Assembly: GCF_964355755.1 (NCBI RefSeq) | Contig: NC_092670.1 | Coordinates: forward strand, 36,009,795-36,073,794 | DNA: 64,000 nucleotides | Direction: 5' to 3' | Source: Antedon mediterranea | Taxonomy: Eukaryota > Echinodermata > Crinoidea > Comatulida > Antedonidae | In this document: piece after piece, positions 3,958 to 57,177 of the stretch | How positions within the stretch are numbered: the first letter of the stretch is position 1 | Layout: each line of letters opens with the position of its first letter | Notes under the pieces: model-generated | What the model saw: only the letters and a program-made list of their open reading frames with translations | Database searches by the model: none | Told to the model about the DNA's origin: nothing | Program-made: the position numbers and the translations under genes

Positions 3958-4169
3958 CTCTTTTTTAGATATGTAATAAGTGAATGTTTTAAGGTTTTTT
4001 ATTCATGTATGTTTTTAATTGTATGGTACGATATCTAATTTTATTAAGATGTTTCTATTTTTATAGCAATTTTAACTAATTTTTAGTCATTTGTAATACA
4101 TTTCATTTCAGTCCTTGACTGTCGTTTTGTAATATATTTTTATATACCGAATAAATAAATAAAAAAAAA
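3958..4169 (+). other. 3' UTR and A-rich tail of the LINE remnant
   Basis: This is AT-rich non-coding DNA after the last LINE codon, ending in (AAAT)n followed by a run of A at about 4150-4168, as expected for the 3' end of a retroposed LINE. Confidence 0.6.
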
Positions 4170-39194: not shown

Positions 39195-42100
39195 ATGGCT
39201 ACTTTGGGGACTCCAGACGCGGAGTCATTGGGCACAGAATATAAAAGGTAAGCCGGCGTTAATAACTATGTTCTGAGAAAAGTTTTTTTTCCATGGTTTA
39301 GCCTAAATGTTTGTAGTTTCTACTTAATGTATGTTATACCCAAAATTTACCCAAACGAATAAACGAAGAAATTATGCCACCTAATAAATAACTATACTTT
39401 TTACTAGGCCTACCATAAAATCTTTCAGAAATTATGTGTATTGTAATCAACATTATTGGTGGTACCAAGGCTATCAAACAACGTTCTTTGTTCTCGATAT
39501 TGAAGACCTTCACCTGCTATGACCTGACAGTGTCTACCCTCATATTATTTCTGTAGCCTACCATAGTTTTATGAAATATGTTATATTTTAGTATAAAAAC
39601 AAATGATAATCTCAGATCTTTACATGGCTGTTCAGTCGTGTTACCCATAGAGACATAATATCTCTATGTTTACCCGTACATCATCTAAATGCCATATAAA
39701 AATATGATCAACGGAAGAGGTTATAAAATATGGAGCTATCATTTATAGCTCCATGATTATGATTACTCCTTCGTACCGTAGACCTACCATAATATGCGAT
39801 TCTTATTTTTCTTTTATAGTGTAAAACCAAGGCATAGGAATCTTTACTTGGTGGCCTTCATTGCTTTGAATGGCCCAACTATGATCGGTTTCACTTTGGC
39901 ATTTACGTCTCCGGCCGTCCCTGATATGGAGAACAGAAATGTACTTACAACGGACACTCAAATTTCCTGGTTTAGTGTAAGCGTACTACCCTACCCGTAG
40001 ATATCAAGGCTATCCCACAACCTTGCGTAGATATCGACTATTCATTTGTCGCTGAATACTACTAACGGGTATTTCGATAACGACACATTTAACAAAATGT
40101 CTATTGTCATTTTTTTTAATGATGTATTGTCCCCCAGGGACATGAAAAATGAAGATTAATTTAATCAGACTTTAAATAGGCTATTTTGAAGTTTTAATAA
40201 AGTTTTTTTCACTTCTGTTAAAAAAATGTTAAACTTATAAAAAGACAAAAGAAACGTTTAAGTTTAACCAAATCCATTGTCTGACAGACAATTTATGTAT
40301 TTTTTGCTCTGAATTAATAAAATATTTTCAGGTAAATAACTTTTTTTCGATCCAGGTTTTGGTCAAACTGAATAACTATTATGTGACATTAAAATGGCAT
40401 ATTAACAAAAAAAAATTTAGGGGGACATTCTTTAACGAAATTTATCATAATATAGACCTATATCAACATTTAGACTCACGCTCTTAAAAGGTAAAACTTT
40501 GTCTGTTTTTTGAACTCACACTTTCTTTGATTTTAGTCACTGATGGCCATAGGGGCAATCATTGGTGGTCCTGTTGCTGGCTATTGCCTCAGTCATTATG
40601 GTCGCAAGTTCACGATGATGCTCTGTAATTTACCACTTACGTTCGGCTATGGACTTATAGCATCTCTTGATAATGTAGCATCATTGTATGTTGGACGTAT
40701 ACTGACTGGCATCGGAACCGGGATGTTTTCTCTCTCGACCCCGGTACGTGTACACAGCCAATACTACTTGATAACATACTTCATGCATTTTTCATAGTTT
40801 TATTCAATGTTTCTATATTTTGCGGCGAATGGAGAAATAATAATTTCCATGTTAACAAACGCCTAAGTCAAAAAGATAGGCGCAGTATTGGTCTATCACA
40901 CCAAAAAGCATAATAAGCACACTTCTATATCTTTAGCTAATTTTGCACATTTAAGTGTATAATTACATCTTATTGTATAGCTTATGTTTTGCTTAAGCTT
41001 TAACGCAGCTATTATGTGCTTTTTTTAGCACTACTTAAGCTGTTTTATTCACTGCTAAGCTATGTTTTGCTTTGCTATTGCTGATTTTGCTGGTACTCAC
41101 ATCCAGGAAAATCTCATGACTTTGATATCTTACAAAATGAATGAATACATTTTTTTTTGTCGTTTCCTCCATTATCCTTCAATATTTACCTTGCTGTATT
41201 TATGTATTATGTAATTCTTTTTTTTATTTAACATCATAGGTGTATATATCAGAATTGTCAAGTCCTAACCTTCGAGGGTTTTTAGTAGGTGGTGTTCAGA
41301 TGTTTCTAGGATTTGGCTTGGTTATTGTAAATGCATTAGGTACGATGTTCTTGTATTGTTTTACAGTCGGAAACTATATATGCCTACATAATAAAATAAA
41401 CGACTCGTGATAACGATTGATTTGTTTGACCTGTCACTGTTCTTTTGATAATTTCCATGCTGGGATAAATCCCGTGCAACAAAGCTGTTAAAAATTAACT
41501 TGAGTCCCTGCGTAGCCTGATTCTCTTAAGCATGGTTCCCACTACCTCACGACGCAAGGACGTAACGCAACGAAAGTGAATTGACCAATCACAAGCGATG
41601 GCTTATTCGCTTGTGATTGCTAACTGTCTATAACTTCGCTTGTCATTGGTTAAAACGCTTGTGTTGCGTTTACGTCCTTGCGTTACGTTCTAGTGGGAAC
41701 CAAGCTTTACCAGGGTTACGGTAGCTTGAACTTTAGGCCTAAGCTTACCTTGGTGGGCCTACTACAAATCATGCTGGGGTATCGTGTTTATAAGTTCACT
41801 TGAGTCCCTTGCTGAATATGCGTAGCCTAATTCTCTTACCAGGATTGCTTGCGCTTTAAGCTTAGTGCAGCGCAAGTACTGTCGTCTTATCCTAAAGCTT
41901 GGTTCCCACTAGAACGTAACGCAAGGACGTAAACGCAACGCAAGCGTTTTAACCAATGACAAGCAAAGTTATAGACAGTTAAGCGTGGTTCCCACTAGCG
42001 ACGCAACGCAAGGACGTAACGCAACGCAAGTGAATTGACCAATCACAAGCGATGGCTTATTCGCTTGTGATTGCTAACTGTCTTTAACTTCGCTTGTCAT

Positions 42101-45100
42101 TGGTTAAAACGCTTGCGTTGCGTTTACGTCCTTGCGTTACGTTCTAGTGGGAACCAAGCTTTAGCAATCACAAGCGAATAAGCCATCGCTTGTGATTGGT
42201 CAATTCACTTGCGTTGCGTTACGTCCTTGTGTTGCGTCGCTAGTGGGAACCACGCTTTAAAGCTTGGTTCCGACTTGGACGCAACACGGTGCATGCGCTA
42301 ACGTACTTTGCGTTGCGTCTGAGTGGGAACCAAGCTATACATAACTGAAACAGTATATTTTTCATTATATAAGCGTACTTTTGCGTACGGTTTTTTGCAT
42401 GTATACATCCGGGAACAATACATTACGTATTAACATTGTACATTTTTTCGTAGGTATTACACTGTCTTATGTTTGGCTAGCAGTTGTTGGCAGTGCGTTA
42501 TCAACTGTTATTTTGATGTTGTTATTGTTTATGCCAGAAACGCCCCATTACTGCATTGGTAAAAACGACCGTTCACGGGCTTTGTCCACATTAAAGTGGT
42601 TACGAGGTGATGCATATGACGTCGAAAGAGAATACAAAGAAATTGCTGAGGCTACAAAGTCGAACTCGGTAAGTTATAGGTATTTTTTTATGTAGAATTG
42701 TGAATTCGAAGTGAACTGTAACTTCCAGTGTGCAGAATGCGGCTATGAAATATTTACCAGAACCGAATCAGAGCGTAACAAATCCCTGTATTTAAGAATC
42801 GGTATTGTGATTACTTTCCCAACTACTAAGATTTTCTTACATAAGCCGCCAAACCATAGCGGAAAATAATCTCCTCCATGGCTAAACAATTCCAGTTTGT
42901 ATTTTTTTTGTTTTGCGTATATGAAGCAGCACTGTCAGTGGAATCAATAAATGTCTGTCAAAAAGAGCTCTGTTTGTGGCAGCAAATTGAATGGCAGGCA
43001 AAACTACTCATAAAATTATATTTTCTATTTTATTTTCAATACTGGATTTTTTTCTATCTTTTCTGTAATCAAATACTATATTGTTAACGAAAACGGGTTA
43101 TCCCAGTGATAGTGAATTTAAGCTTAGTCTACACAAAGCAATAACAATAACAGAATGCTGAGTTAAGTTCCGGAGATCTAAGGGTATCTATGGCTGCAAC
43201 ACGATGAGTTCCATGCCCCTTAACAGACATCCCGCAACAGTACTGTTGGTATTTGTCACAGCCAGACATAAGATCAAAGTTACAAGTTCTTATCTTGGCA
43301 AGACGAGCTCAGTTTCATGTTGTTAGATTGCCTCGGTCTACACTATCAAACTTTTTACAAATTCCGATTTCTCCACTGTTTGGAAAAAGTGTGGTGATTA
43401 TGGTGGCGGAGCTCTGTAGGACCTATTCCAGCATCTTGGCAGGAGCGCAAGCGGGTATTATGATAAAGCGGGTATTATGATAAAGCGGGTATTATGATGA
43501 AGCGGGTATTATGATGAAGCGGGTATTATGATAGTGACTAGCCTAGTCTATACCTGCTACTGTTTACAGAAATTAAAGGCTGTCCTGGAGTGTTAATTGA
43601 TTGTGTACAGTAGGTCAGCCGCCTTAACGCATCCAGTAAGCGTAACATGTAAAAAGGTGAAAAATACAACATTGATGAAAAGAAAGTTGAATTCGTATTA
43701 TAAAAAGTGTTTATTATTACACGTTGACATTCGATTACATTTAAGTTATCAATAATATGTATTTATTATTGTACCAATTTAAACGGCGATTGTAAATAAA
43801 TGTAAAAGCAAAACAATCCAATATTTAAACAGCTTTTAAAAACTCACCCTTTTAACAAATATGTTCACCCTCGATAAACCCTATTCAATTCAGTTGAGAT
43901 CCATATATTTTATGGCCTGTCACTCTCACCTTTAATTGCTCTTTTTTATTTTATTTATTTCATGGATTACTTGTATTTTTATGTGAAGCCCTTAAAGGTT
44001 CAAATTGATTTATTATTATATAAAATAAGAACAATTATTATTATTACGATTCTTTTTTCAATTGATTTTAACATTTTTCGTTAAGTTTTAATTGATGAGG
44101 ATGAGTAAAATATAAGAATAAAATATGGATGGAAAAGAGTTGCCAATAAGCCTAGGATGTTAAGCCTTTTGGTTGATTGATATGTACTTGATGCCGTCAT
44201 CTTCATTATGGCACAGCAAGTCATCCCCACCATCTCCATTCACATCCGAAACTAACACATTATTGCCGGAAGTACACCAGTTTTGTTTACGGGTCCAACC
44301 TTTTGACGAGAACGAACCGTTGTACAGAGAGAATGCTATCCAGTATGGACCATTGGTATCACTGCACATGATGTCGTCGCGGTTATCTTTATTGAAATCT
44401 CCGACGCTGAGCTCAGAGTTCGAATGCTTGCACCAACCAAGACTTCTACTCCACGTGATAGAGGTAAATCCGCCAGTTGCTGTTGCTGCTGCTACATATA
44501 TGTAACCATTTGAGTAGTCGTGGCAGAGCATATCAGCCCTTCGATCTCCGTTGAAATCGCCAGTAAAAAGTCTCTGATTTGTACCCTTGCACCAGCTCAT
44601 GCTTCGTGTATAACACGCTGAGGTAGAAAATGTACCATCATATCTGGCGTACGATATTTTTATGTAACCCGTACTGGCTGTATGACACAGTATATCATCT
44701 CGGCCGTCCGCGTTGAAGTCGGCAACATAGAGTGTTTCAGTAGACCCCTTACACCAGTTCATACTATAATACCAAGGGGTAACAGTGAATACACCCCCAG
44801 GTTGTGCCTTAGCTACCCACTTCTGGCCAGTTTGAGGAACATGGCACAGCATATCGGATCGACCATCGCCGTTGAAGTCGCCTATGAACAGTTCATATCC
44901 GTTTTGGTGGCAAAATGCCATTTCCCTTCGCCATGACCGGTCACCATTAAATGTGCCGTCGCAACTTTAAAAAAAAAAAAGAAGAATGTAACATCAACTA
45001 AAACATAATATCAGATTATCATCAAACACTGCTATTATTGTAATTAGTCAATACAAATTATTTTTGTTAATTACGTTTTTTTTTTACAAAGACCAACAGG

Positions 45101-48100
45101 GATTCCGAAAAAAGGTTAAATGTTTAGGCCCTATATTTCATATTCATGGTCTCGCAAGTAGACGGCTTCTTCTTATTCAGGATTTACACCATTTACCGTT
45201 AGTGCTACACACAAAAGGTCATGGTTTTATGGCTTTGATCTTGGTTTTCTGTAAAGGTATAGTCTGGGTTCCAGACGTACGGAGTTTGACTTAATCTTAG
45301 TTAAAAGATAAATATGTTGGCACATACGGCGTTTCATACATATTATACTAGTTGAGCTTGTAGACAAACATCGAAAATTAAAAGCATCGAAATAAAATAA
45401 CTACAGACTTGGGGCAAGTCTAGTAAAAAGGTACTGTGCCAAGACCTGCTTGAACTGGGGCTTAGTATCAACGGCACTCAAATACAGTAAATTGAGGTTC
45501 CTAAGTGCGGCGATTGTTTAGTACTCTGTCGCTAGTCTGCGGCTAGGATTTATTTGAATGGTCCCTTAATACCTTCTAATTAGAATAAAACCCTTAGAAA
45601 ATCTCATGATACACTCGATTGAAATACTACTTTCGATTTCTATGAAAGATTACGGGAGTGTTTTATATTATTACCTTGCATAGTAAATCCGCTTTGAGCC
45701 AGTCTTGGAGTCGTGAAACAACAGATCCTCATTACCGTCACCATCGAAGTCTCCCGTATACGGGATGTTTTCGGTTCCTACGCAGAATCCCATCTCAAGT
45801 GTGAAGGTTGTACCCAGGAATACATCATTCGTAGAAACTAAATAGATATAATGTAAATAGTTATTGTGGAATAATAATATCAACCATGTTGGTGATTGGA
45901 TTGTTGATTGGAAGACTTAACAGGCACCGGCAATCTGCCTCACGCTGAAATTGCTGTTTTTTTTCCTTTTGTTTATTTCATATTCATCTTAATAACAACA
46001 CAAATTTAAAAGAAACGAGAAAATCTTTTAAAATAACCAAAAAATGGAGCTTAACTAAAATATTCATCACTGAACACTTTTACAATGTTACATTTTTTTA
46101 TATACAAATCATGAGAAACAAAACTGTTAAGATTAATAGACCTACAATTTATGTCCACAGACCCGTTTTACGTTTACCTGAAACGGAAAAGTATTTAGCA
46201 AAAATCGAAAGCAATTGTACAAAACAGAGCTATACCGTTAAACAAAATATCTGATTACCTGCTTTGGTGGAAACGCTTTTTTCATCCGGTTCTGGCACAC
46301 TATCTAAATAATTAATAAATAATGCTTTTATACTAACAATGATTTATCCAGAATAACCATAAACGTAACCGTAACGTAACAATAGTTACATTCGTAATAT
46401 CACCGTAAGGGCTTTAAAATGAGCAATACAAGTTACTTTGTTTTCTAGGTACAGTAAGGTACAAAAATTATTCGGACAAACCATAGGGTACTAATTTTTT
46501 TGGCGTCAGAGACAAGATGTCAGGTACAGAACAAAGACAAATTACGTTAAGAAGAAATTAGACTGACGTTAAAGTAACGCAAGGACGTAAACGCATCGCA
46601 AGCGATAACAAGCGACAGTTCGAATATTCCATCGCTTGTGATTGGTCAACCCGGGTGGTCAACTCACTTGTGTTACGTCTTTGTGTTGCGTCTCTAGTGG
46701 GAACCAACCATTGGTAAAAATGTACAGAAAAAGCTACTCTTTAAATACGTATAGTTGTATAATAATCAAATACGATTTGTTATGAGAAAAAATGTTCCCT
46801 TCTGCTAATTTTTCAATTGGAAAGCAGCAAGTAGACCTAAATATTTTTTGGATACAAAATAACTCTATAAGATCGTATGTGTTTACCTTACCTTTTTTGG
46901 TGGAAATGTCTTTTTCGGCCGGGTTCTTTGCCACGCTCGCTGAAATAAGATATTATAAGTAACCGTAAATAACAACATTTTACATTATACCAGCGAAGAG
47001 TGAAACATTCACTCTTCCCTGATTTTACTGTTCTGTACGACACGACAAATCATGTGTCGGAAACATTCGGAAAGAAGAACATTTGCTATTATGATTGTAG
47101 TTCACAATATCAAATCACTATTCCCAATTGAATCACCAATGTTCTTAATATGAGAGCACAGTACAGCGATCAAGTGTGTATTAATCGGCGAAAAATCTGA
47201 GCTAGGCCTAATTAGAGAGATGTTGGATATCTCACAAAGTTTGCGTTAAAACCTGACCAGAACAGACCAGTCGAATGTGATGATCTTAGGCCCTACATGG
47301 CTACTTGTTTTGACAATTCGGTTAAAAGCTTACCTGCTCCAGATGTATGCAGAGTGTATGTCAGACAGAGAAGCAACACTAACGTCATTGAGCGAGTCAT
47401 CTTGTATAGTTATGCTGCAGCTTCAGAAGAAGAAATGATATTAAGTTGTTTGGTACCGCTTATATACGTATGGTCTCGGGAAAATATAAAGGCCATAAAT
47501 AATCATTATTCAACAAGATTTGAACATTGATACCAGATTACAGTCGCACATCCGGAGGGCACAAACATTTTAAAGACAAATAAACAGATAAGAAACAAAC
47601 ACTTATAAAGTAGAAAGCGTCATAAAAAAATCCCCAACTTATAAATATCCTTAAAGTTGGGTAATGCTATTAGGTAGGTGAGGTGAGGGAATGGGTTTGT
47701 ATCCAATGCTATTATTTGCGTCGTCCATGAAGCGCCCTGTCGATAGGCCTCTAGATGGTAATACTTTATTGTTTTCAGTGGAGTAGGCCTAATGATTAAT
47801 TTAAAAAAAACCGTTTCTTTTACATATTTGAAAAATTAAAACATTAAACTTTAAAAATCTGTCAATATAACTGTTGGTGTTGAAAACCAAACAGTCAATG
47901 AAGATGTCTAATTGATTGTTTTACAATATACAAATCCTCATGGACATGGACAAGAAAAATTGTTATTATAATTTTACATGTACCGTATGATATTGAAATG
48001 AAATAAAAGTTGAATGACCCAAAGAAGAGAAAACAAATGAAGATGGATTGTAAAATATGTTAAACTCTTTTTATATAGTATTTGTTCATGATAGCCAGGT

Positions 48101-50673
48101 GATCGGGCCCAGTGTTATCTTGTGTTTGTGTTGTGATTCGGTTTTTCAGTAAGACCAATAGTCATATTTGTGAATACACTTATTGTTACGGATACAAAGG
48201 GGAAACACAGATATTTTTCATAAAATGAATGAGGTCATACAGCATATTGTATTTGATGACCTCGTTCGTAAATATGCATTTTTGGAGATATGGGTACCGG
48301 GTATAACTCTTGGTGTATTACGTATATGACGTATATCACATGTTGATAGTCATCCAGTATATTGTATTTGATAACCTCATTGGTGGTAGATACGAGTTTT
48401 CAGAGATATGAGTATAACTCTTAGTTCAACATGGCTAGAACTCTATAGTGAAGAGTTTTTCACCTACATTTGAACTGTCCGGGAAAAGAGAAATAGTGTG
48501 TAAATTATACTGAGAGGGGTTTGTGGTTGAGCGTAACGGGATCAGTTACGTACATTACGCTTTGGAGGGGGTGGGTGCAATGCAGGTTAATTAGCAATTG
48601 AAATGACGGGTAGGCCCTATCTATCTCTTGTATGTTAACAACAGGGAAAACTCATGAAGTAGATTTCGCTAAACACATTTGACGTCACAGCGATTTACGG
48701 CGACGGCGAGCGCGTGCGGCCGATATCATAAATCTTGCAATTGCATGTACATCCCTAATACGTTGTCAAATATTATTATTATGTATATTCATAGGAGGAG
48801 TTTCAGTACATAGAGTTCCTGCAACCAAACATCTACATACCACTGGGAATCAGTATCATGTTGATGGTATTCCAGCAGTTCAGTGGAATCGGCCCGGTGA
48901 CGTTCTACTCTGTCACTATCTTCCAATCGGCATCACCGTCCTTAGACGACAACGTCGCGGCGATAATCATAGCCGCCGTGCAAGTCGTGGCAACATTTAT
49001 TTCTATGTTGCTCATTGAAAGGACGGGTCGGAAAATACTTCTTATTGTTGCAGGTAATTGTATTATGTATGTATTATTAGGCCTACTAAAGCTCTGTCTA
49101 CACTATCAAACTAGTTTGACAAAAAACAATTGTGATGTGTTCAAATATTGATGTGATACCCAAATATGGCAGGTAGTGATATGACATATCATAATGTTCA
49201 TTAAGGTCACATAACATTTTTTTTCACATAAATTGACAGAGAGAGAGAGAGAGAGCTTTAGACTCCTCACCTTTAACAATTTAGGCTGAGATCAATATTA
49301 TATAAACTTTACGGAAAAACATTATGGGATACAAATACATATTGGTAAGCTCTGTCTACACTATCAAACTTTATGTGACAAAATAATGTGATGTGCCAAT
49401 ATATGGACCCGATGACGTAAGATAACTACCGCTTCACCACAAATGACACTTTTTTTTGTCAAACTAGTTTGATATAGCGTAGACAAAGCTTTTGATAGCA
49501 TTATGTTTGAAACGTTTTCTAAAAACTATAACTAACTACTATAGAGTACGAATGGGCAAAACGTTACAATTAAATAAGGGACGGACGAACATTACGCATA
49601 ATTTTTTTCGTAAAGATGTTGAAGTTCCTATGGTCGTCGCAATGGTTGCCGCATTAAGATCGTCTGATCAGAGAAGGCGACCTTCCGTAATATATAGTGT
49701 TGGTTTTATAATAGTTTTTTTTTTAAATAACCAAATAATGTGTATATTCTCCATACAGCGATTGGAATGTGTATAAGTACGACAACGTTTGGTTTGTACT
49801 ACAAATTGACAGAAGTCACCACAAACAGTGGCACGTTAAATAACCTAGAGATGACAGCTCCGCCGTCTGTCGACGGCAACGTCAACATGTCCACAGTATC
49901 ATACGAACTTTTATATTCAACGACGGCAACCACGTCATCACCATCAACGTTAGATTTGACGTGGTTGTCGTTGAGCAGCCTGGTTGTGTTTACGTCATCG
50001 TTTGCGTTGGCATGGGGTTCTATACCGTGGCTGATTATGTCTGAAATCTTACCAACACGAGCAAGAGCTTCCGCTAGTGCTGTCGCGACGATGTTTAATT
50101 GGCTGTCGGCCTTTACAGTAACAAAGGAGTTTTTTGACATGTCGGTAAGTTAACTACAAAAAAGTGGCTATAACGATATAATATAAACGATTTTTTACGT
50201 CGTGTCGTCACGTTTCATGTGACAAGAATCGTATCGTTATCGTCCTAGTAGGAACCACCATTATATGCACGGTTTTAAACTGAAACGCTATCGTCACATC
50301 GTCGTATGTATAAACAAATATCTTAACATTGTCATGATCATAATATATTTTATCATAATTTAATCTATCATAATCGATATTAGGTCGTTATCATTATCAT
50401 ACCTCCAGCATGCCAATTATTATCAGAGGCAGTCATTATCACGTCACACAAATTTAAATATTGTTTTGTTTTTGTCTTCCCTTTTATAAAAACCGCTTTT
50501 AGGCTGCTATGACGGATGCTGGAGTCTTCTGGTTTTATGGAGGCATGTGTTTTCTAAGCGTCATATTTGTGACGTTTTGTGTGCCGGAAACCAAAGGAAA
50601 GTCGTTAGAAGAAATATCAACTACGTTTGACCGTGGCAGCAAATATAAAGTTTGCTATGATTGTACTACATAA
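39195..50673 (+). CDS. SLC2A-family facilitated sugar transporter, copy 1 (class III GLUT/Tret1-like)
   Basis: The exons are 39195-39247, 39820-39976, 40537-40743, 41240-41339, 42454-42668, 48795-49053, 49759-50144 and 50503-50673; the intron phases are 2,0,0,1,0,1,0. The product is 515 residues. Family signatures in order are SHYGRKF in the loop after TM2, YVGRILTGIGTG, VYISELSSPNLRG, FMPETPHY after TM6, QQFSG in TM7, ERTGRK, WGSIPWLIMSEILP in TM10 and VPETKGKSLEEI at the C-terminus. These are class III GLUT8/GLUT6-like features. The TM7 motif reads QQFSGIGPVTFY, so the Asn that binds sugar in GLUT1 (N288) is Gly. The loop before TM10 (exon 7) is about 25 residues longer than in copy 2 and rich in Ser, Thr and Asn. 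Intron 5 (42669-48794) contains an antisense gene. Confidence 0.93.
40122..40431. mobile_element. MITE family D, copy 2
   Basis: It starts ATGTATTGTCCCCCAGGG and ends TTTAGGGGGACATTC. The blocks TTTAAATAGGCTATTTTG and CTGAATAACTATTATGTGAC match 32015-32400. It lies in intron 2 of transporter copy 1. Confidence 0.7.
41526..41709. mobile_element. MITE family B, copy 2, with TTA on both sides
   Basis: TTA|AGCATGGTTCCCACTA at the left and CTAGTGGGAACCAAGCT|TTA at the right bound the copy. The interior is nearly identical to 27806-27989. Confidence 0.9.
41893..42257. mobile_element. Two nested MITE family B copies
   Basis: An outer copy is split into 41893-41980 and 42162-42257. A complete inner copy lies between, at about 41979-42164. 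Removing the inner copy and one TTA rejoins the outer sequence as GACAGTTAGCAATC, exactly the uninterrupted sequence in the other copies. The target duplication is thus TTA. Confidence 0.9.
42258..42339. mobile_element. Short MITE family B derivative
   Basis: AAGCTTGGTTCCGACTTGG and CTGAGTGGGAACCAAGCT form the ends of an 82-bp copy with a diverged core (GGTGCATGCGC), directly abutting the nested pair. Confidence 0.75.
42669..43448. other. Transporter-1 intron 5, first part, nothing firm
   Basis: No gene is seen. A partial family A terminus (GGTCTACACTATCAAACTTTTT) lies near 43335. Confidence 0.35.
43449..43534. repeat. 18-bp minisatellite, about 5 units
   Basis: Units of GCGGGTATTATGAT(A/G)AA are repeated in tandem. 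Confidence 0.85.
44160..47400 (-). CDS. Secreted FG-GAP/VCBS-repeat protein, nested antisense in a transporter intron
   Basis: The five exons, in transcript order, are 47334-47400, 46892-46939, 46259-46303, 45675-45837 and 44160-44964. Every junction is GT-AG on the minus strand with matching phase, and the product is 375 residues. Exon 1 encodes a signal peptide (MTRSMTLVLLLCLTY...). Exons 2 and 3 (48 and 45 nt) encode similar linker segments, SVAKNPAEKDISTKK and SVPEPDEKSVSTKA, evidently a duplicated mini-exon. Exons 4-5 carry six calcium-loop repeats of the D-F-N-G-D-G-x-x-D type starting at Asp 83, 137, 190, 244, 297 and 348, a period of about 53 residues, each with a following LLCH or similar strand and a WC motif. 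This is a beta-propeller architecture; lectin-like or integrin-like binding is possible but unproven. The start is chosen because the signal peptide follows it and the exon ends in phase with exon 2. Confidence 0.88.
45838..46258. other. Intron of the FG-GAP gene, nothing recognised
   Basis: This is AT-rich intron between its mini-exon 3 and exon 4. Confidence 0.35.
46555..46716. mobile_element. MITE family B, diverged copy
   Basis: It retains GTAACGCAAGGACGTAAACGC, CCATCGCTTGTGATTGGTC and TCTCTAGTGGGAACCAA, but the left terminus is lost. It lies in intron 2 of the FG-GAP gene. Confidence 0.7.
47401..48239. other. Region upstream of the FG-GAP gene, inside transporter intron 5
   Basis: No coding or repeat feature is recognised. 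The FG-GAP promoter should be in this stretch, but no confident TATA or initiator is visible. Confidence 0.35.
48240..48425. repeat. Imperfect 100-bp direct repeat
   Basis: ATATTGTATTTGAT(G/A)ACCTC, GGAGATATG or AGAGATATG, and GTATAACTCTT recur in order at 48250-48315 and 48358-48423. Confidence 0.5.
49087..49262. mobile_element. MITE family A copy with a GA microsatellite at its end
   Basis: It opens TAAAGCTCTGTCTACACTATC and closes CACATAAATTGACAGAGAGAG...AGCTTTA. The terminal GACAGAGC has expanded into (GA)n. Confidence 0.75.
49348..49491. mobile_element. MITE family A, inverted and internally short copy
   Basis: TAAGCTCTGTCTACACTATC starts it and TTTGATATAGCGTAGACAAAG ends it. The VNTR core is missing or degenerate. 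Confidence 0.75.
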
Positions 50674-51687: not shown

Positions 51688-54600
51688 ATGTCAACTTTAA
51701 GTGTTGCTGAAGAGAATGAGGCACTCTTGACAATCAATCAAAAGAGGTTGGTATGAAGATAATCCAGTATGGCCTACCTAGCTAGGCCCTACTAGAGAGA
51801 TCCCTAGAGAGGGCCTAACCTAATTGCTAGGCCTAGTACAGTAGGCCAGAGGCCTAGAGTAGTAGTAGGCCTACTAGGCCTAGGCCTTGTTTGTAGCGTT
51901 ATTATGAGTTTAAGGTAGAGGGCCTACTAAGAAGGATAGCTAGAGAGAGAGGCTAGCCTTGACCTTTCTAGTACTGTAGGCGAGCCTAGCCAACAAAGGC
52001 TTCATAGAAAAAAATAATTTCTTAATATTTTATTTTAAATTGCCTTTCATTCAGTCAGACGCCATTACACAAGAACCAGTACATAACAACGCTTGTAGTT
52101 CTTCTAGCACCAATTCTCATGGGCTATACTTTAGGTTATTCATCACCAGCATTACCTGATCTTGTTGATAATAAAATACTTACATCCGATGGCCAACAAG
52201 CATGGTTTGGAGTAAGTATTGCATTAGGATGTGGGCGGTGAGAGGGGGTGTAGGTGAAAGGGGGTGAAGGTTGGAGGGGGGAGTTTGATTTGAACAAGTT
52301 TATTGTGGGGTATAAGGTACGACCATACCGCACTTGACCTTAAGGATTGGTTCCCACTAGGGCGCAGCGCAAAAATATATTAAGCACAATGCATGTTATT
52401 TGGAACAAATGTTTTAGCAGGAATGTGTTGATATCTTTACTTCTGTTTTGTTAAAAACGTTTTAAAAAAGTTCCTGTATGAACAAATTAAACAACCTTTG
52501 TATTGATTTTAATAATTCTATATTTTTATTATACATTTTCTAATTCAATTTTTGTTAATAATTTAAAATTTCAGTCCATGGTTGCTATTGGTGCCATTTT
52601 TGGCGGCCCGATTGCCGGTATGTCTATAAACAAGTTAGGTCGCAAGTATTCCGTGATGATATGTGCCTTTCCATATGCAGTCGGATATGCCATGATTGCA
52701 TCGGTGAATAGTGTAGCAGCTCTATACGTTGGACGGATATTGACGGGTGTGGGAGCTGGAATGACATCTTTGGCAACTCCTGTACGTTTTTTTTAACAAT
52801 ATTGGGTTTCAATTTATTTATTCAAATAACTCCGGCATGCAAGATTCATAAAAAAAAGATAGATACTATAAAGGAACGAAAATGAATGTTTAATTTGTAA
52901 ATCATGAATATTACTGTATTGTGTGGTGTACTGTATGTTTATGTATGTGAAGTTTTTAATTGTTCGTTTTAATTCAAGTTTTAAAAAAAGTGGGGAATTC
53001 ATTTGGTTGTGGCAAACTCACAAAAACAATATATAAGTACAAACACAAATATGTACACATACACATTCATTATTGGTCCAGTAACTGAAAATTTGTCTTT
53101 TATTTGTGTCGGTGTTTTCAATTATTCTTAATGTGTGCAATGAAAACTAAAAACTATTTTCATTTCCATTGTGAATTTCAGATATTACAATTAATTCAAT
53201 CCTTCAATTAGTTTCAATTTATTTATACTACATATTTATAAAAAATATGGATTGTGGTTTTGCACACCATACGGATTGTTGAATTCTATGAATGCAAGGT
53301 GTTTTCAAATGTTTTTTTTCTGCTTCAAAGGTTTACATAGCGGAAGTATCAAGTCCAGATATACGAGGTGCTCTCGGTGCAAGCTTCCAGCTTTCTGTAA
53401 CAATAGGTGTTTTTATAGTTAATGTGTTTGGTAAGTATGTGTGAGTAAGTAGAAAATCAACCCCTACTACTCCCTAAGACAGCTACCCCAAAGACAACTA
53501 CTTCACAAGACAGCTACTCCCCAAGACAACTACTTCACAAGACAGCTACCCCAAAGACAACTACTTCACAAGACAGCTACTCCCCAAGACAACTACTTCA
53601 CAAGACAGCTACTCCCCAAGACAACTACTCCCCAAGACAGCTACCCCAAAGACAACTACTCCCCAAGACAGCAGCTGCTTCCAAAGACAGCTACTTCACA
53701 AGACAGCTACTCCCCAAGACAACTACTCCCCAAGACAACTACTCCCCAAGACAGCTACCCCAAAGACAACTACTCCCCAAGACAGCAGCTGCTTCCAAAG
53801 ACAGATACTTCTCAAGACAGCTACTCCCCAAGACAACTACTCCCCAAGACAGCTACCCCAAGACAACTACTCCCCAAGACAGCTACTCCCCAAGACAGCT
53901 ACTCCCCAAGACAGCTACTCCCCAAGACAGCTACTTCACAAGACAGCTACCCCAAAGACAACTACTCCCCAAGACAGCAGCTGCTTCCAAAGACAGCTAC
54001 TTCACAAGACAGCTACTCCCCAAGACAACTACTCCCCAAGACAACTACTCCCCAAGACAGCTACCCCAAAGACAACTACTCCCCAAGACAGCAGCTGCTT
54101 CCAAAGACAGATACTTCTCAAGACAGCTACTCCCCAAGACAACTACTCCCCAAGACAGCTACCCCAAGACAACTACTCCCCAAGACAGCTACTCCCCAAG
54201 ACAGCTACTCCCCAAGACAGCTACTCCCCAAGACAGCTACTCCCCAAGACAGCTACTCTTACTAAATTTAGTACTATTGATTAAATGTATGTTTCTTTAT
54301 TTTGAATTAGGAGTTCCACTTTCCTATGTCTGGTTGGCCAATGTTGGGTGTCTAGTGTGTGCGTTACTGGTTGTACTCATGCTCATTATGCCTGAAACGC
54401 CTCAATACTATATTATGCAACATCAACGTGATAGGGCACTCTCTGTTTTAGTATGGTTACGAGGTCCCAACTATAATTCAGATCGCGAATGTAGAGAGAT
54501 TGAAGATAATACTAATTTAAAGAAGGTATGGCTTTTTTTATGTATAAATATATATGACTTGCACTGATGAAGGGCTACTGAAAGCTCTGCTAACTTTTCT

Positions 54601-54759
54601 GACTGTTTTACTCTATTGTTTTGTTTTAGCTTTTCGCTTTTATTTTGTATCTTTATTGAGATCCAAGCACTGATACCCACAGCATTGTCATTTTTTCAGT
54701 ATTTTGCCTTTAGAAATATATATATATATATAAATACGTCGGGCACAGAACATGAATTC

Positions 54760-54803
<44 letters not shown>

Positions 54804-57177
54804 TATGCTAAAATGTAATTAATTTGAAACGATAAAGATGAGGAAATCTGTGAGAACTGGAAAAAGTCACCTCAATCGAGATTCAAACCTGGAACCTTGC
54901 TTGATATTCAATATATAAATACAATTTTTTTTATCTGTATGTGGATTGGCCCAAATCGGTGTCTATTTGAAATGCTGGGTATTAATAGTAAAAAATCTTA
55001 ATTTAATTCGTATGTTAAAAAAAGACCGACACTGTTTTTTAAATTGATACTGCTTGTGTAAAATAATTGTTTAGGCCTTCTTAATACAAATCAATTTATG
55101 TTTTTCTTTCTTCAGAATGATTTCCAATATAAAGAATTTTTCAATGCTTATTTGTACATACCGTTAACAATTAGCCTGTGTCTGATGGTGTTTCAACAGT
55201 TCAGCGGCATAAACGCTGTCATTTTCTATGGCGTCACAATATTCCAGAGCGCAGCTCCGTCGATTGAAGAGCATGTCGCTTCTATCATCATTACCGCTGT
55301 TCAAGTTTTGGCTACATTAGTCGCAGTGATTTTAATGGACAGGGCAGGAAGGCGAATACTTTTAATTTTAGCAGGTTTGTCGTTTTTTTCATTGTTTTGT
55401 CATGTTTTTCATTGTTTTGTCATATTTTGTTTTAACAGGACATGTTTTGAAAGTATGTCTGAAACTTCTGCAAATTTTTAGTGTTTTTTAACAATTATAT
55501 GAAATAAAATTTGGAGCCATTTCACCAATAAAAAATGCCATTTTAGAATTCCATTAAATCTTAGTATGTCAAGGTCTGTCTACACTATCACATTTTTTTT
55601 TCACATAAAGTTTGATAGTGTAGCTTAAGACAATTGCAGATTGAATAAAATAACCTGAGCCTGTGTCGATTGTATATCTATGGTTTGCAGTGCCCCTACC
55701 TTAACGTAGCGTAGCGATGTGACAAAGTTAGCCGTTTGTCCTGCTTTTTACTAGAAAATTTATTCTGCCAAGTTGTCTAAATAGGTGTTTGCTTTACTAT
55801 ACTTGAAGGAATTGGAATGTGCATAAGCTCAACAACATTTGGTGTTTATTATGATCTGACCAAAAACAGTACGTCATCTGCCAACGTGTCGTTGACAAAT
55901 ACCGACTTGGGAGACTCGCATACTCCAGATCTCACTTGGCTGTCCATGATGAGTATGATCATCTACATCACAGCGTTCTCCCTTGGTTGGGGCGCAATAC
56001 CATGGCTGATCATGTCTGAGATTTTTCCAACCAGGGCACGGGGAGCAGCGAGTTCAATAGCTACGGCTGTCAACTGGACTTGTGCTTTTATAGTAACAAA
56101 GGAGTTCTTTGATATGGAAGTAAGTGTGTTTTTTTAATGAAATTTTAACCAGTGAGTGAGTGACCTTTGGACAAAATACATTAGTGACCTATGACCCACA
56201 AACGGTACAACATGTTAATTAATTCATTCATGCACTATTGGGATCATTAGATTGATGCTTCTTCAATCGATTTCTCGATACAGTTTTGATAGATCCAGAC
56301 AATGACCAATGACGCAAAATACGAGACCTTTTGACCTAGGAACTGGTTACAACATGTTCACTCACTGTGCACATATTTGGAACGTTAAGATGTGTGCTTC
56401 CTCAATCGCTTCCTCGCTTACAGTTTTTGACAACCAATGACACAAAATTTGAGGTCATAGGTTGTCAAGAGCTTCCTATTATCTGAAGTCGCTTCTCACA
56501 GAAAAATTGAATATCACCTAGTTCAGTAGCTGTAACAAATAAATCGAGAAAAAATATTATAAATACAAAAGCCGTCATAAAAAAGTGACCATTTTTATTC
56601 CCCATTCTTTCTAGAACAGCTTACTTACAAACAGAAAAAAGAAAAACTGCTTTAACAAAATACATTTACCGATGCTTTGGATTTGAAATAAAATGTTACA
56701 GTGCCCTCTATTTTATGGTTGTAATCGCCGCTATGTTCTATGGTATTGCAATCTTTCAAAGTGCAGCGCCAGCATGTCTTCTCTATCAATACCATTGTAT
56801 TAATATTTTGCATATAATTTGCATAAATGCTATGACACCAAACCTCAAATGACAAGTAAATCAGCCGTACCAAAATCACATATTACTAAAGTTATATTGT
56901 GCATGCAATGATTAAAGGTTAATATTAACTTTGGTTTTTATTTTCTCTCGGTTGACAGAAGGGTGCTTGCAAAGTTATTTTATTATCTTCTTTTTCGCAG
57001 AGTGCTATGACAAGTGCGGGAGTTTTCTGGTTTTATGGCGGTGTCTGTTTAGTTGGCGTTATATTTGTCGTTGTTTGCGTTCCTGAAACAAAAGGAAAAA
57101 CGCTAGAAGAAATATCTGAGTATTTTTCAAGGGACCAAAAAATTCTGGATTTCCCAATTGCGGAACAGATAACTTAG
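51688..57177 (+). CDS. SLC2A-family facilitated sugar transporter, copy 2 (GLUT8-like)
   Basis: The exons are 51688-51746, 52055-52211, 52575-52781, 53331-53430, 54311-54525, 55116-55374, 55809-56119 and 57001-57177. The intron phases are the same as in copy 1, and exons 2-6 have identical lengths (157, 207, 100, 215, 259). The product is 494 residues. Signatures are LGRKYSVM, YVGRILTGVGAG, VYIAEVSSPDIRG, IMPETPQY, QQFSGINAVIFYG with the canonical TM7 Asn, MDRAGRRILL, WGAIPWLIMSEIFPTRARG and VPETKGKTLEEI. The N-terminus contains EENEALL, fitting the acidic dileucine signal [DE]xxxL[LI] that sends GLUT8 to endosomes and lysosomes. The donor after exon 1 is GTTGGT, a weak form, chosen because only it keeps the frame. 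Confidence 0.94.
51770..51900. repeat. AGGCCTA/CTAG word cluster
   Basis: Dense AGGCCTA, CCTAG and TAGGCC words, as at 390-665, lie here just after exon 1 of transporter copy 2. Confidence 0.5.
53467..54256. repeat. 16-bp minisatellite with higher-order structure, about 790 bp
   Basis: Units of AAGACA(A/G)CTACTCCCC are repeated about 49 times, with variants ending CTACTTCACA or CTACCCCA and a recurrent CAGCAGCTGCTTCCA insert at about 53668, 53783, 53972 and 54087. The recurring order of variants gives a higher-order period of about 300 bp. It fills most of intron 4 of transporter copy 2. Confidence 0.9.
54556..54715 (+). repeat. Repeat family F, copy 2
   Basis: It has the same limits as 13816-13992, from GACTTGCACTGATGAAGGG to GCCTTTAGAAATATATA. 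The GTGTTGCCC part of the hairpin is deleted. Confidence 0.7.
54763..54925 (-). mobile_element. tRNA-headed SINE copy with a 36-base C run at its 3' end
   Basis: The C run spans 54763-54798. Read on the minus strand, 54925-54799 matches 6665-6783: AATATCAAGCA, TTTGAATCTCG, GAGGTGACTTTTT, ACAGATTTCCTCATC and ATATCACCGGG. On that strand the SINE ends in G36. Confidence 0.75.
55570..55628. mobile_element. MITE family A, termini only
   Basis: GTCTGTCTACACTATCACA is joined directly to CACATAAAGTTTGATAGTGTAG; the core is deleted. It lies in intron 6 of transporter copy 2. Confidence 0.75.
56120..57000. other. Intron 7 of transporter copy 2
   Basis: Two loosely similar blocks (TGACCAATGACGCAAAAT..GAC and CAACCAATGACACAAAAT..GAGGTC) lie at about 56160-56345 and 56380-56460. 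A short plus-strand segment at about 56725-56775 (TCGCCGCTATGTTCTATGGTATTGCAATCTTTCAAAGTGCAGCGCC, described in parts) resembles TM7 of a transporter (FYG-IFQSA) and may be a stray duplicated exon fragment. Confidence 0.4.

Follow-up and report, generated by a model that had tools for sequence, protein, structure and literature searches.

A secreted FG-GAP propeller gene nested antisense in a sugar transporter intron of Antedon mediterranea, very probably a DNA-level copy of a tandem-array member

In the crinoid Antedon mediterranea, a gene for a secreted FG-GAP (VCBS-type) protein lies within an intron of a sugar transporter gene, on the opposite strand. Its position raises the question of whether it is a functional gene and, if so, where it came from and whether it arrived before or after the host transporter was duplicated. 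We analyzed the locus in a window of 64,000 nucleotides (NC_092670.1, positions 36,009,795 to 36,073,794), and positions given below are those of this window unless another locus is named. The host, transporter copy 1 (39195 to 50673, plus strand; 8 exons, 515 amino acids), is followed in tandem by copy 2 (51688 to 57177, plus strand; 8 exons, 494 amino acids). Both are MFS sugar transporters by their intact frames and PF00083 matches (2.7e-80 and 1.3e-92, respectively), and in the full models exons 2 to 6 have the same lengths in the two copies. The original prediction of an intron 5 of about 6.1 kb in copy 1 against less than 600 bp in copy 2 is borne out by measurement: 6,126 bp (42669 to 48794, plus strand) versus 590 bp (54526 to 55115, plus strand), with the remaining introns of copy 1 spanning 358 to 1,114 bp. 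No FG-GAP sequence is present in the short intron of copy 2, and searching the copy 2 locus with the nested protein returned no match and no relic of the gene. When copy 1 was searched against the genome, copy 2 was the only match besides the query, although a missing match in this search does not prove absence. Copy 2 also carries, in its intron 4, a minisatellite of CAAGACAGCTACTCCC-type units (53470 to 54258), which is open in three frames (ORFs of 268 to 372 amino acids) and likely a gene-finder trap, and, in its intron 7, a degenerate exon-6-like fragment, MVVIAAMFYGIAIFQSAAPA (56712 to 56780), possibly the relic of an additional transporter copy.

The nested gene, here called N (44160 to 47400, minus strand), has five exons, all of them within intron 5 of copy 1, and its gene model encodes 375 amino acids in a frame unbroken from ATG to TAA. 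Each of the four introns has GT-AG boundaries, with phases of 1, 1, 1, and 2 after exons 1 to 4. Exon 1 (47334 to 47400) provides the start codon and signal peptide MTRSMTLVLLLCLTYTLHTSGA and has a homologous exon in a paralog, A, described below. It is followed by two symmetric phase-1 mini-exons, exon 2 of 48 nucleotides (SVAKNPAEKDISTKK, 46892 to 46939) and exon 3 of 45 nucleotides (SVPEPDEKSVSTKA, 46259 to 46303); further mini-exons were sought in N, and none were found beyond these two. Propeller blade 1 is encoded by exon 4 (45675 to 45837), and blades 2 to 6 plus the stop codon by exon 5 (44160 to 44964), as judged from the gene model and a structure model. Taken together with PF13517 matches in the product, these features uphold the predicted complete, secreted five-exon FG-GAP gene, antisense and nested. 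At 268 codons, the frame of the last exon is the longest open frame within the intron, the maximum across 300 dinucleotide-preserving shuffles of the host intron being 174; this difference and the existence of an independent paralog rule out chance open frames. N is not a chance chain of ORFs, because paralog A (C1:33869895-33875007) independently repeats its exon structure and phases. Two high-copy dispersed repeats are located in the introns of N (46571 to 46711 and 45260 to 45422), showing approximately 77 to 82% identity to many genomic copies.

Contigs are chromosome-scale, and AGGCCTA motifs are frequent. Searching the genome with the N protein recovered ten loci, N included. Seven of the ten are arrayed at C1:33.61-33.88 Mb, each in plus-strand orientation; the others are one locus on C5, one on C6, and N itself at C1:36.05 Mb, on the same chromosome as the array and 2.2 Mb away from it. 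Paralog A is placed at the end of the array, approximately 5.6 kb past the next member, and emerges as the sister of N with 100% support in both nucleotide and protein trees. It comprises eight exons: a signal exon, five 48-nucleotide symmetric mini-exons, and two propeller exons. The layout of N follows the same order with identical boundary phases at homologous exons, and with two mini-exons where A has five, a difference that represents expansion or contraction of an exon array. The mini-exons of A (L009:2797-5080) are consecutive, phase-1, and encode 16-residue repeats in which E, K, S, and T abound. The family is still duplicating at the DNA level, as seen from a segmental duplication between C1 and C5 of at least 7 kb with 97.5% identity (L037:2987-10000 and L039, the latter on the minus strand), which holds one FG-GAP gene and probably also the start of a second gene.

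The coding sequence of N is under protein constraint. When changes along the N branch were polarized by six paralogs (26 codons being ambiguous), we counted 31 synonymous and 19 nonsynonymous changes, a ratio of 0.18, with the A branch showing a ratio of 0.27. The probability of so few nonsynonymous changes on the N branch is about 3e-9 under equal rates per site and 9e-5 under a conservative ratio. Approximately 5.7 stop codons would be expected on this branch under neutrality; none were observed (P of none, 0.004). Since only 19 of the 50 polarized changes are nonsynonymous and no stops have accumulated, N is a functional-looking gene whose product is maintained as a protein. The earlier reading of a live gene, argued from matching exon phases, thus finds its phases confirmed and gains the coding-constraint tests. 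Alternatively, N could be a decaying or silent pseudogene whose frame is intact only through recency, in a family that does include very young copies and a pseudogene within the array with five in-frame stops (C1:33629862). However, N is not recent (dS of 0.53 from A), its branch ratio and lack of stops are at odds with decay, and its promoter region is conserved, leaving this alternative very improbable.

The route of copying can be read from what N and A have in common. Their similarity extends approximately 210 bp upstream of the ATG (47401 to 47613, minus strand, in N), and a global alignment of 320 bp of upstream sequence scored 95, compared to at most 6.5 in 100 shuffles. Within this region, a TATA-like box, TATATAAG, can be read from the sequence of N at about 47459 to 47466, some 60 bp before the ATG, and pairs with one in A (N, TATATAAGCGG; A, ATATAAACGG). 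Past the stop codon, homology between the 3' flanks of N and A was not distinguishable from shuffles; a candidate poly(A) signal, AATAAA, is found in N 145 nucleotides past the stop (44009 to 44014, minus strand). Copying was DNA mediated, because the signal exon, phases, introns, and some 200 bp of upstream sequence are common to both genes. Retroposition is out, as N keeps four introns at homologous positions together with upstream DNA common with A; on this comparison, N is best described as a DNA-level duplicate and not a retrogene.

The age of the insertion can be given relative to the transporter duplication. N and A share 80% amino acid identity, with a dS of 0.53 (95% CI, 0.41 to 0.68) and a dN of 0.12. 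The two transporters share 54% amino acid identity, and their dS of about 2.6 is saturated, with many undefined bootstrap replicates. Differences at 4-fold sites amount to 29% between N and A and 63% between the transporters. Because a dS of 0.53 stands against a saturated value for the host pair, the data support an insertion younger than the tandem transporter duplication, on the condition that the old location is that of A, and the age so obtained is relative only. Taking A as the old location appears to be the simpler reading given its place in the array, and parsimony favors copying from the array into the intron over the reverse. If N and A have exchanged sequence by gene conversion, the insertion would be dated too young. 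The original prediction had left two possibilities, arrival of the gene after the duplication or its loss from one copy, and the first is favored here by this difference in divergence and by a sister in a distant array. Under the second, N would have occupied the intron before the transporters duplicated and later disappeared from copy 2, whose short intron might then be a deletion product; yet the N-A split at a dS of about 0.5 is set against saturated transporters, copy 2 retains no relic of N, and its closest relative belongs to the distant array, so that we give this sequence of events very little credence.

We therefore consider it very probable that intron 5 received, in antisense orientation and after the transporter duplication, a copy of an array member complete with introns and core promoter, giving rise to a functional-looking gene. 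The source would have been one member of the tandem array of secreted FG-GAP genes at C1, and the copy would have traveled 2.2 Mb, well after the tandem transporter duplication as judged by relative divergence. Because N brings a promoter region and a candidate poly(A) signal of its own, it should be transcribed independently, and the host would remove the whole N region by splicing along with intron 5. Such a history makes N ordinary among nested genes, because insertion of young duplicates is the commonest known route to nesting. Nested structures account for 4.3 to 8.7% of vertebrate protein-coding genes, Drosophila has approximately double the human and mouse proportion, and most nested genes are young duplicates inserted into introns (PMC8467205). 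Like the metazoan nested genes described there, N is complete, wholly intronic, on the opposite strand, a duplicate of a gene elsewhere, and housed in a long host intron; it differs from them in details only, namely in its retained introns and promoter region and its tandem-array origin. Arrival by transposition of an array member, which the original prediction did not consider, explains the arrangement.

Interference of N with expression of the host is possible, and in mammals no expression divergence was found to follow from nesting (PMC8467205). It is also conceivable that N acts as an antisense regulator of the transporter and that the nesting is kept for that reason, given that the primary transcripts would overlap in antisense if both genes are transcribed. 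However, paralogs that are not nested are intact too, the protein itself is constrained, a property not required of an antisense RNA, and nesting is widespread and mostly involves young duplicates (PMC8467205); a regulatory reason for the nesting therefore seems highly unlikely next to the transposed array member.

The product of N contains, in order, a signal peptide, a short linker with many E, K, S, and T residues, and six FG-GAP repeats. It matches PF13517 (FG-GAP_3) at 2.1e-30 in five stretches, with 105.5 bits against a cutoff of 26.9, and PF01839 at 4.9e-19. In nearly all blades, a DxNGDG calcium-type motif is flanked by Trp/Phe-Cys and by a second Cys, amounting to about two cysteines per blade. 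An AlphaFold model of exon 5 (blades 2 to 6, five of the six), built with four bacterial relatives, reached a pLDDT of 78 and a pTM of 0.79; from the single sequence the model was poor (pLDDT, 49). The exon 5 model matches VCBS propellers with Z scores of 19 to 24 and integrins with about 12. A phmmer search of the PDB with N gave no match, whereas the family profile did match. The best fold match is 9oee, a secreted Streptomyces griseus protein in complex with UmbA4 (Z, 23.7; rmsd, 2.8; 263 residues), which shows 26% identity to N and, unlike N, lacks WC/LC cysteines in the stretches that align. Exon 5 is thus predicted to encode a propeller of the VCBS type, with the fold search leaving room for other propeller families.

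Fungal GlcNAc lectins (PVL, PAL, and AAL2) are also matched by fold, with a Z score of about 19. As in PVL and AAL2 (2bwm and 4tqj), N displays Pfam FG-GAP_3 and the DxNGDG calcium-type motif, but it has six repeats instead of seven, about two cysteines per blade, and a shorter interblade segment. At the position of the pocket Trp (GW motif), N has W in four of six blades and F in two of six, the preceding Gly being mostly absent. In each blade of AAL2, an Asn/Asp located 7 to 8 residues before the pocket Trp is essential for GlcNAc binding (PMC4483166). In N this residue is absent in all six blades (T/T, S/R, P/T, C/A, T/I, and G/K), and we do not call N a PVL-type GlcNAc lectin.

Extracellular recognition is the likeliest role for N on present comparisons, because C-type lectin exons precede the propeller in three paralogs (E, F, and H). 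These exons, located at L037:3430-3663 and about 3990-4090 in E, at L038:2962-3192 in F, and at L039:8401-8168 (minus strand) in H, match the first part of the PF00059 domain (5.8e-10) and are preceded by a signal-like exon and followed by the propeller exons; part of the family may represent C-type lectin-propeller fusions. From its fold, motifs, and paralog architecture, the N product would be a secreted, calcium-binding, disulfide-stabilized six-bladed propeller that may bind an extracellular glycan or protein. Literature on FG-GAP proteins in echinoderms yielded a single relevant item, in which a sea cucumber "FG-GAP repeat family protein," matched here by family name only, is among the gut transcripts most downregulated after evisceration, where it appears alongside digestive enzymes and lysozyme (PMC3735544).

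The relatives of N outside the animal point to the possible origin of the family. Of the best 80 prokaryotic loci, only the top four (L040 to L043) contain the cysteine-paired blade; they come from Enhygromyxa salina, Plesiocystis pacifica, and two metagenome-assembled genomes labeled Myxococcales and Deltaproteobacteria. Their identity to N exon 5 is 34 to 41% over the alignment and at most 42% in the best segment, and strong matches were found in 17 of 192 genomes sampled from the class to which the Enhygromyxa genome belongs. The secreted propellers of Enhygromyxa salina and Plesiocystis pacifica share with N the same WC...DxNGDxxxD(L/M)(L/M)C blade, and the Enhygromyxa protein, like N, is stand-alone, secreted, and six-bladed. 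In contrast to N, the myxobacterial genes are without introns, and in others of them, as read from sequence, the propeller is joined to protease-like domains. A published survey describes PVL, tachylectin-2, and integrin propellers as satellites of prokaryotic VCBS groups (PMC8023676). The confinement of the cysteine signature to the top four of the best 80 loci suggests an old transfer of the propeller between bacterium and animal, in either direction. More tentatively, and as a scenario we hold to be possible without regarding it as probable, the family would derive from horizontal transfer between marine myxobacteria and this animal lineage, in which the propeller then acquired introns and a signal exon, gained either charged linkers from mini-exons or a domain of the C-type lectin kind, expanded in tandem, and was scattered by DNA-level duplication, including the copy in the intron.

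The locus provides a clean and relatively datable case of nested-gene origin, in which a multi-intron duplicate with its promoter would have arrived after duplication of the host, and the empty intron of copy 2 next door serves as a built-in control for the insertion. The close likeness to marine myxobacterial proteins, the nearest among prokaryotes, was unexpected, and this lead may outweigh the nesting in importance; together with the C-type lectin exons of some paralogs, it fits a role of the family in extracellular recognition.
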